NCBI RefSeq assembly: GCF_009720625.1
Contig: NZ_CP046266.1
Location: 4,349,501 to 4,413,500 of the forward strand
Source: Metabacillus sediminilitoris
GTDB taxonomy: Bacteria > Bacillota > Bacilli > Bacillales > Bacillaceae
DNA: 64,000 nt
Direction of reading: 5' to 3'
The translations under genes were made by a program, and so were the position numbers. Below, in pieces: positions 30,690 through 60,643 of this stretch (position 1 is its first letter; the number at the start of each line of letters is the position of its first letter). The notes under the pieces were generated by a model. The model ran no database searches. It was not told where the DNA came from and saw only the letters and a list, made by a program, of their open reading frames with translations.

Positions 30690-30960
30690 AGGAAAAATGA
30701 ACAACAAAAAGCCCCTTCAAAACTGAAGGGGCGAATTATTCGCGGTACCACCCTACTTAGGATTAACTTAAAATCCTCGCTCGGCAATTTAACGGTTAAA
30801 CCGTCTTTTTCTACTAGGCTCACCCTTTCGAAAAAGAAGCTCATGGACGTAATTCACGGAGTATCTATATGCTGATTTCCACCGACCATCAGCTCTCTAT
30901 AATAGGGAGATCTCCACTACTGAACCCAATCTTAGCAATAACGTATTAATGTTGTTACAA
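30690..30960 (-). promoter_or_regulatory. T-box leader of tyrS
   Basis: The minus strand contains the T-box core AGGGTGGTACCGCGA (about 30739-30753), followed by the antiterminator partner and a terminator, CCCCTTCA/TGAAGGGG with TTTTTG (30707-30732). Upstream is a long paired stem region with an AGTGGAGATCTCCC helix. UAC tyrosine triplets occur in the specifier region (GATACTCC and AATTACGT); I could not decide which is read. Uncharged tRNA-Tyr would favour antitermination. Confidence 0.93.
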
Positions 30961-58239: not shown

Positions 58240-58372
58240 CATTAACCCTCTTTTCAGCGAATTTCTATCTATCATTAGTAATACAATGTTTTATGTACAT
58301 CCAAATCGTTATACTACATAACATGCTATAATGTGTTATAAATACATTATGCATAAATATAACGCGAGACTT

Positions 58373-58464
58373 ATCGGATCTTTACAGGCAGTTAGCTCCA
58401 CTACAAGTTTCTTTGTTTCTCTCTAACTCAAGATAGGTTTTACTGACTGTTAAGAATGGAATAA
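58373..58464. repeat. Solo, diverged copy of the structured tandem repeat
   Basis: GCGAGACTTATCGGATCTTT is identical to the array units at 59788-60571, followed by ACAGGCAGT, an internal diverged section and ACTGACTGT (one mismatch in the stem). It lies about 130 nt after the ytoP start and 30 nt before ytzB. Confidence 0.75.
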
Positions 58465-58496
58465 AATATAATCCAAACAATAAAGGAGTGACATGA

Positions 58497-58808
58497 ATGA
58501 AAGGCAAATATTTTTTACTCGGCTTAGGACTTGGTATTGCAGCTACATACATCCTTAAAAACCAAATAACACATAAGTCAATCTCCTCAGAAAAAGCATT
58601 AGATCTTGTTAAACAAGCATTTAAAGAAAAAGGGCCTATTGATGGTTCCTGGATTTATACAATTCCTGAAACATTTGAAAATGAACATTTATCATATGAA
58701 GTTTATAAAGCTGGTGTTTCCCGTACTGTCAGTGATCAACTAGAACAATACGAAGCTTTTGTTGATGTCAAAACCGGAACCATTATACATGTTGAAAAAA
58801 TTGCCTAA
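58497..58808 (+). CDS. ytzB: YtzB, PepSY-domain protein
   Basis: A 103-residue protein with an N-terminal membrane helix (about 4-20; FLLGLGLGIAATYIL) and a PepSY-like domain (about 30-100; SSEKALDLVKQAFKEKG, YEAFVDVKTGTIIHVEKI). PepSY proteins are often exported inhibitors or regulators of peptidases; function here unknown. AAGGAGTGACATGA precedes ATG 58497; an out-of-frame ATG lies 3 nt earlier. Confidence 0.85.
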   Translation: MKGKYFLLGLGLGIAATYILKNQITHKSISSEKALDLVKQAFKEKGPIDGSWIYTIPETFENEHLSYEVYKAGVSRTVSDQLEQYEAFVDVKTGTIIHVEKIA

Positions 58809-59718: not shown

Positions 59719-59750
59719 AACATCCCCTCCCAACTTTATCTTATCATAAA

Positions 59751-60616
59751 GCGAGACTTGAATCATTGGGGGTTTCAATGATTCTTAGCGAGACTTATCG
59801 GATCTTTACAGGCAGTTTTATCCACAACAAAACTTTTTTCTTTCTCCTTTATCTAAGATAAGGAACGAACTTACTGCCTGTTATGATGGGATAAAGCGAG
59901 ACTTGAATCATTGGGGGTTTCAATGATTCTTAGCGAGACTTATCGGATCTTTACAGGCAGTTTTATCCACAACAAAACTTTTTTCTTTCTCCTTTATCTA
60001 AGATAAGGAACGAACTTACTGCCTGTTATGATGGGATAAAGCGAGACTTCAATCAGGGGTTTTACTGATTGATAGCGAGACTTATCGGATCTTTACAGGC
60101 AGTTTTATCTACAACAAAACTTTTTATCTTTCTTTAAATCTAAAAAGTTTTACTGCCTGTTATGATGGGATAAAGCGAGACTTCAATCAGGGGTTTTACT
60201 GATTGATAGCGAGACTTATCGGATCTTTACAGGCAGTTTTATCTACAACAAAACTTTTTATCTTTCTTTAAATCTAAAAAGTTTTACTGCCTGTTATGAT
60301 GGGATAAAGCGAGACTTCAATCAGGGGGTTTTACTGATTGATAGCGAGACTTATCGGATCTTTACATGCAGTTTTATCCACAACAAAGCTTCTTTCTTCT
60401 ATATCTAAGATAAGGTCCTACTGCCTGTTATGATGGGATAAAGCGAGACTTCAATCAGGGGTTTTACTGATAGCGAGACTTATCGGATCTTTACATGCAG
60501 TTTTATCACAAAGCTTTTTTCTTTCTTCTATATCTAAGATAAGATTCTACTGCCTGTTATGTATGGGATAAGCGAGACTTCAATCATTCAGGGGGTTTTT
60601 CACCCACAATAGAGCG
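59751..60616. repeat. Tandem array of structured repeats, six copies
   Basis: Units begin at 59751, 59896, 60041, 60175, 60309 and 60443 (lengths 145, 145, 134, 134, 134, 129); a partial seventh begins at 60572. Each has GCGAGACTT, a hairpin, a second GCGAGACTT, ATCGGATCTTT, then ACAGGCAGT...ACTGCCTGT and ATGATGGGATAAA. It fills the gap between ytnP and trmB. No ORF spans it. Confidence 0.9.
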
Positions 60617-60643
60617 ATAAAATTAACAAAAGAGAACATAAAA

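Follow-up and report, generated by a model that had tools for sequence, protein, structure and literature searches.

A tandem array of a small structured repeat in Metabacillus sediminilitoris that very probably consists of stacked copies of a bcr1-like mobile element

The bcr1 repeats of the Bacillus cereus group, which belong to group A of these repeats (bcr1–bcr3), are described in the available portions of two reports as having a TTTAT motif, conserved folding and MITE-like mobility, and as occurring in tens of copies per strain, mostly on the chromosome (PMC6542083, PMC3446304). Their length is given as 147 bp in a literature column and as 167 in the model in the accessible part of a third (PMC2267715), and in two B. 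cereus strains bcr repeats were often transcribed by read-through within mRNAs (84 of 165 and 62 of 155 copies, as far as PMC3446304 is available). The accessible text describes bcr1 as restricted to the B. cereus group, and the titles and abstract openings of the literature, which leave subscription papers largely uncovered, mention no bcr1-like repeat outside of it. Here we describe a tandem array from Metabacillus sediminilitoris which we compare with these and other repeats, and which lies in a stretch of 64,000 nucleotides referred to as the window (contig NZ_CP046266.1, positions 4,349,501 to 4,413,500; coordinates given below are window positions unless stated otherwise).

Tandem Repeats Finder reported a single array at 59746–60586 with a period of 134, 6.1 copies and 91% matches, and cutting at ATAAA divided it into six full units at 59746–60566 in which a single ATAAA is common to each junction. 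An earlier note made from the sequence alone had described a six-copy array with unit lengths changing stepwise (145, 145, 134, 134, 134 and 129), and both statements were borne out by the cuts, with a degenerate seventh unit in addition. The note had also based its units on a repeated GCGAGACTT, and this repeat is indeed present (14 occurrences in the window compared to 0.29 expected from shuffles, with 13 of them inside the array), but the unit begins at ATAAA (59746) and not at GCGAGACTT. The features of the array, and of a related copy nearby, are as follows.

58359..58465, + strand: short form of the element without hairpin 1 (hairpin 2 only); BLAST, covariance model E 8.7e-12
59746..59890, + strand: unit 1, from ATAAA to GGG, 145 bp; ATAAA cut, covariance-model match of 107.8 bits
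59760..59784, + strand: hairpin 1 of unit 1, GAATCATTG / CAATGATTC; fold, homologous helix covaries
59808..59881, + strand: hairpin 2 of unit 1; fold, homologous helix covaries
59891..60035, + strand: unit 2, 145 bp; identical to unit 1
60036..60169, + strand: unit 3, 134 bp; ATAAA cut, covariance-model match
60170..60303, + strand: unit 4, 134 bp; identical to unit 3
60304..60437, + strand: unit 5, hairpin 2 with one broken pair (ACATGCAGT), 134 bp; ATAAA cut, covariance-model match
60438..60566, + strand: unit 6, hairpin 1 shortened, ACATGCAGT, 129 bp; ATAAA cut, covariance-model match
60567..60621, + strand: degenerate unit 7, with ATAAA at its end; sequence, weak BLAST match (E 0.004)

The array sits between two genes which, from their ORFs, we take to be ytnP and trmB, and is located upstream of ytnP, 28 bp from the likely start of that gene; both genes are on the − strand while the element is written on the + strand. 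The short form lies 1.3 kb from the array and upstream of a 103-aa ORF starting at 58497. We note that the only Rfam match in the window at gathering score is a T-box leader at 30724–30942 on the − strand (157.9 bits).

Read 5' to 3' on the + strand, the order within the element is ATAAA, hairpin 1, the middle CTTATC, hairpin 2 and GGGATAAA. The core stem of hairpin 2 in unit 1 pairs ACAGGCAGT (59808–59816) with ACTGCCTGT (59873–59881), and in the fold it is enclosed by an outer stem of TTATC (59795–59799) and GATAA (59890–59894). As the earlier note had it, hairpin 1 is formed by GAATCATTG/CAATGATTC in units 1–2 and by CAATCAG/CTGATTG in units 3–5, with both arms changed jointly at two pairs when compared by eye (G-C to C-G and T-A to G-C), and an extra stem of 11 bp (AAAACTTTTTA/TAAAAAGTTTT) is present in units 3–4. 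The further claim that every unit holds the two hairpins needs qualifying at the end of the array, where hairpin 1 of unit 6 is shortened and the left arm of hairpin 2 in units 5–6 is ACATGCAGT, so that one G-C pair is broken. Hairpin 1 extends outwards by AAG/CTT, and in many lineages also by GACT/AGTC or AACT/AGTT, with 10–11 bp of pairing in the extensions of five collected loci (L036, L049, L093, L096 and L101); in the units of the window, GCGAGACTT appears as a direct repeat because five bases in the middle of this extension are mismatched. The middle CTTAT could, we infer, pair with either end of the element.

The view that the structure has been under selection, also put forward in that note, gained strong support from covariation in three alignments. 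When 45 diverse copies were aligned with MAFFT alone and the structure was hand-written from the consensus and folds, 24 of 43 pairs had changed on both sides (16.5 when shuffled and 11–20 when slid), with 112 double-change cells compared to 50.7 shuffled and 23–47 slid. A structure-fitted alignment of 54 matches, which includes distant ones and six antisense rows, had 39 of 43 pairs changed on both sides (26.7 shuffled and at most 25 slid) and 387 double-change cells (112 shuffled and at most 61 slid). Copies from outside the class Bacilli, although largely different in the sequence of hairpin 2, folded on their own into the same two hairpins with double changes in 22 of 40 predicted pairs; for this third alignment copies were fetched from 15 of 19 genomes and one copy each from 14 was aligned, omitting G813, whose copies resemble the Bacilli form, and the second copy of G741.

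The element is not confined to the array. BLAST found 63 matches to unit 1 in the M. sediminilitoris genome (5.60 Mb in one contig; E ≤ 10) and the covariance model 119 (E ≤ 1, including overlaps on the opposite strand), and the 69 best model matches (E up to 1.9e-8) were taken as the list of copies. These are dispersed and mostly in intergenic DNA, with dispersed copies up to 96.8% identical (genome positions 5071064 and 5549131), and there are further tandem arrays of two to six units. Three forms can be distinguished, a short form of about 100 bp, a standard form of about 155 bp and a long form of about 210 bp, with a median length of 155 bp over the 70 copies cut out by script (59 further core matches stayed uncut). 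The short form consists of one GCGAGACTT and hairpin 2 and is an imperfect palindrome bounded by TTATC/GATAA, and the long form has an extra module after CTTATC; no terminal inverted repeats were seen by eye at the ends of aligned standard-form copies. Long forms are clustered in two regions of the genome, at 2.10–2.18 Mb and 5.06–5.08 Mb (L313, L315 and L316). Deletion forms of 51–53 bp, in which the left arm of hairpin 1 is joined to the right arm of hairpin 2 at GTGGGG, occur in different species (L058, L073 and L304). Additional modules made of a G+C-rich mini-hairpin, with loops resembling ACATCCTGT or GACGTCCTGTC, are found in L039, L049, L058, L078 and the long forms of M. sediminilitoris; they are located within either of the two main hairpins or between them, and are perhaps a second, nested repeat.

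Insertion was examined by comparing the joined flanks of seven sites with seven genomes, source genomes included, and empty counterparts could be aligned for six of them. Two are cleanly ATAAA. The L241 site is exact, reading ggctATAAAgtagagg when empty and ggctATAAA-element-ACAAAgtagagg when filled, and five genomes have an empty L231 site, which reads gATAAATAAATTC in four of them; the targets at L238, L237 and L245 are TTAAA-like or diverged, and the L246 counterpart is too diverged for reading. At the clean sites insertion thus targets ATAAA, or TTTAT when read on the opposite strand, and this pentamer flanks the element on both sides once the site is filled. Of 71 stand-alone copies, 58 carry ATAAA as the left pentamer, and the 15 bases preceding the pentamer show no strong preference; the right pentamer is less clear (the script read two registers). 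The array itself is missing, by eye, from the trmB–ytnP spacer of all 18 relatives having both genes; in one further relative ytnP was not found near trmB, and another gave no match to trmB.

Retained orthologous copies in sister species (three sites and five pairwise comparisons) are 94.8–96.8% identical, and their 150-bp flanks 85.2–96.0%, which suggests that the copies diverge roughly like their flanks. It should be noted that drift is not proven, since in two of the five comparisons the element is more conserved than one flank (96.1% and 94.8% compared to 85.2% and 86.7%). Relative to the element, the flanking ORFs at 49 sites in the M. sediminilitoris genome are oriented (−,−) at 17, (+,+) at 13, (+,−) at nine and (−,+) at nine, with one undetermined, and hence there is no orientation bias at these sites; 38 of the 49 touch no ORF call of at least 70 aa and 11 touch one, mostly short (ORFs were called by a simple script rather than a gene caller). 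Drift after insertion fits the copies better than a host role, and it is possible that some copies have a role, for example through an effect on ytnP.

The family has a patchy distribution across the Bacillota. The covariance model matched 18 of 21 Metabacillus genomes (E ≤ 0.01), and copy number among relatives, a comparison which the earlier note had proposed, ranged from 0 to 117 matches per genome with antisense overlaps included. In wider samples, matches were found in 105 of 348 genomes of the order (E ≤ 1e-5), in 43 of 398 of the class (E ≤ 1e-6; 31 of the 43 outside the order) and in 22 of 398 of the phylum (E ≤ 1e-8; 19 of the 22 outside the class). A core pattern was present in at least 120 stretches from named genomes, and the 80 listed have Bacillales names bar one, with hosts among the matches listed including Metabacillus, Cytobacillus, Oceanobacillus, Priestia abyssalis, Ammoniphilus and others. 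One copy (L093) is on a contig labelled Pseudomonas sp. ISL-84, which is likely to be a mislabelled Bacillaceae genome. Phage records gave no BLAST match to the element and viral contigs no exact match to the core or end pattern, and two of 72,556 plasmid records were matched, one over the full length (Pseudalkalibacillus hwajinpoensis) and one in part (Klebsiella grimontii). The latter, CP079755.1 (L311, from 1501), holds a degraded element-like stretch far beyond the host range seen otherwise.

In our view the array very probably consists of stacked copies of a small mobile element that is non-autonomous and site-specific and whose folding is maintained by selection for mobility. The folded single strand, either DNA or RNA, would be recognised by an enzyme acting in trans and joined to ATAAA, and because every inserted copy again ends in ATAAA, further copies could pile up head to tail. 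Unequal recombination or slippage may then double units, as is indicated by the identical pairs (unit 1 and unit 2, unit 3 and unit 4), and selection for mobility would keep the pairing while copies drift once inserted. A selfish repeat was one of three options offered by the earlier note, the others being transcribed RNA and a protein-binding array, and it is the one that best suits the dispersed copies, the empty sites, the variable numbers within the genus and the lack of orientation bias. The note had also seen signs of recent local duplication, and this is right for the array itself, in which neighbouring units are identical; elsewhere, a site with a single full unit in G005 has three in its sister species G011. 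As a complete explanation, plain tandem duplication with chance hairpins would draw on the same identical units, and its probability is negligible given that copies are dispersed in the same genome and over the phylum, which rules it out; the sporadic presence in one strain that the note had named as grounds for such a reading is not what is seen.

The strong covariation across the phylum, and the frequent occurrence of bcr repeats within B. cereus mRNAs (PMC3446304, available part), would also suit a locally amplified structured RNA, regulatory or non-coding, that serves the host. We judge this highly improbable, as copies have no orientation bias, numbers range from none to 117 within one genus, sites are found empty and divergence is roughly flank-like. 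A simple scan of the array returned no promoter or terminator match (2.9 and 0.4 expected), leaving the transcribed-RNA option so far unsupported, and no Rfam family scored above its gathering score for the element (a permissive scan gave three weak matches, the best with E 0.29).

Searches for Y1 transposases, IS110 and reverse transcriptases, together with a loose scan of the collected loci for element ends, found no mobilising enzyme or autonomous partner. The scan gave 850 right-end and 394 left-end matches with 222 and 28 orphans (overlapping loci counted twice), and those listed are mostly the palindrome middle read backwards, deletion forms or chance. A match in the M. sediminilitoris genome that reaches into a 478-aa ORF was also set aside; it is situated at the end of that ORF, which we read as an amino-acid permease. 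IS110 numbers were not significantly correlated with copy number in the genus sample (rho 0.34, p 0.13); M. sediminilitoris has 28 IS110-family matches, the highest of the 21 genomes. The transposase of group A IStrons is of the IS605 type. These insert downstream of TTGAT, ATTAT or TTTAT (according to the accessible part of PMC4227781), and the hairpin ends of our element and its − strand TTTAT would fit a DNA element moved in trans by a Y1 (IS200/IS605-type) transposase, with subterminal hairpins, no inverted repeats and a T-rich pentamer target. We regard this as possible but rather unlikely, as Y1_Tnp is absent from the one-contig M. sediminilitoris genome (E ≤ 0.001) and from G004 and G015, which with it are the three match-richest genomes, as well as from G018 (three matches), whereas G016 and G020 with five each and G006 with three have no element matches at all (Spearman −0.44, p 0.047, n = 21). 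Reading the + strand, G-T outnumbers A-C by 46:21 in 21 stem pairs of one alignment (A1) and by 100:44 summed over 26 selected pairs of the model-fitted alignment (A2), but only by 152:125 over all 43 pairs of the latter, and these counts are not independent because the copies are related. The excess in the better stems weakly suggests that the folding strand may be the one whose target reads ATAAA, which would speak against Y1. The same excess would suit a SINE-like retroelement, in which a folded + strand RNA ending in AUAAA would anneal to TTTAT at a nick and be copied by a reverse transcriptase in trans, with tandem arrays made by template switching; the standard form has no inverted repeats, its 3' end is perfectly complementary to the target, and reverse transcriptase domains are found in 19 of the 21 genus genomes. 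We nonetheless think this origin very unlikely, since the ratio over all pairs is small and G-T forms in single-stranded DNA too, G014 (23 element matches) and G018 have no RVT_1 match, reverse transcriptase number is not significantly correlated with copy number (rho 0.17, p 0.46), and the two window units that were folded were more stable relative to shuffles as the − strand (z −3.65 and −6.81) than as the + strand (z −2.07 and −4.95).

There is a small chance that the family represents a phylum-wide class of mobile element that is RNA-mediated (SINE-like) or works by some other new mechanism, with two abutting hairpins bounded by ATAAA, no inverted repeats in the standard form, no known transposase, pentamer-specific insertion and self-stacking into tandem arrays. 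Returning to the stacked mobile element that we favour, compensatory changes have preserved its structure through a large replacement of the hairpin 2 sequence, and the data suffice to fix the active fold and to seek the mobilising enzyme by co-occurrence. This raises the question of how an element that lacks inverted repeats moves and stacks in a genome with no Y1 transposase of its own.

Among known systems, the non-autonomous elements derived from IS200/IS605 and the REPs share with our element the hairpin ends, a pentamer target and, in the standard form, the lack of inverted repeats, but the M. sediminilitoris genome has no Y1 transposase and the folding strand may read ATAAA, to which the evidence points weakly. 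Classical MITEs moved by DDE transposases are likewise small, non-autonomous and flanked by a repeated target; however, our standard form has no terminal inverted repeats, while the short form is palindromic. Compared by description, the pneumococcal BOX is also a modular structured repeat of variable length, regarded as mobile and as a rule under 200 bp, but is reported with terminal inverted repeats and has another host range (PMC3049150, as far as available). The closest known kind is bcr1, whereas for Rfam at curated thresholds the earlier note was right in recognising no named family. Our element and bcr1 are similar in size, conserved secondary structure and MITE-like mobility and share TTTAT, which in our element appears as the left ATAAA of most stand-alone copies and in the clean empty sites, but bcr1 is described as confined to the B. 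cereus group whereas our element is found in many Bacillota families. Two full-length copies used as queries matched no B. cereus group plasmid (E ≤ 1e-5 and E ≤ 1), and a B. cereus 16S probe matched none of the 348 order-sample genomes. Likened by description, the element is best regarded as bcr1-like and not as bcr1, and it appears that elements very similar to a kind of repeat described as peculiar to the B. cereus group exist from Metabacillus to beyond the class Bacilli.
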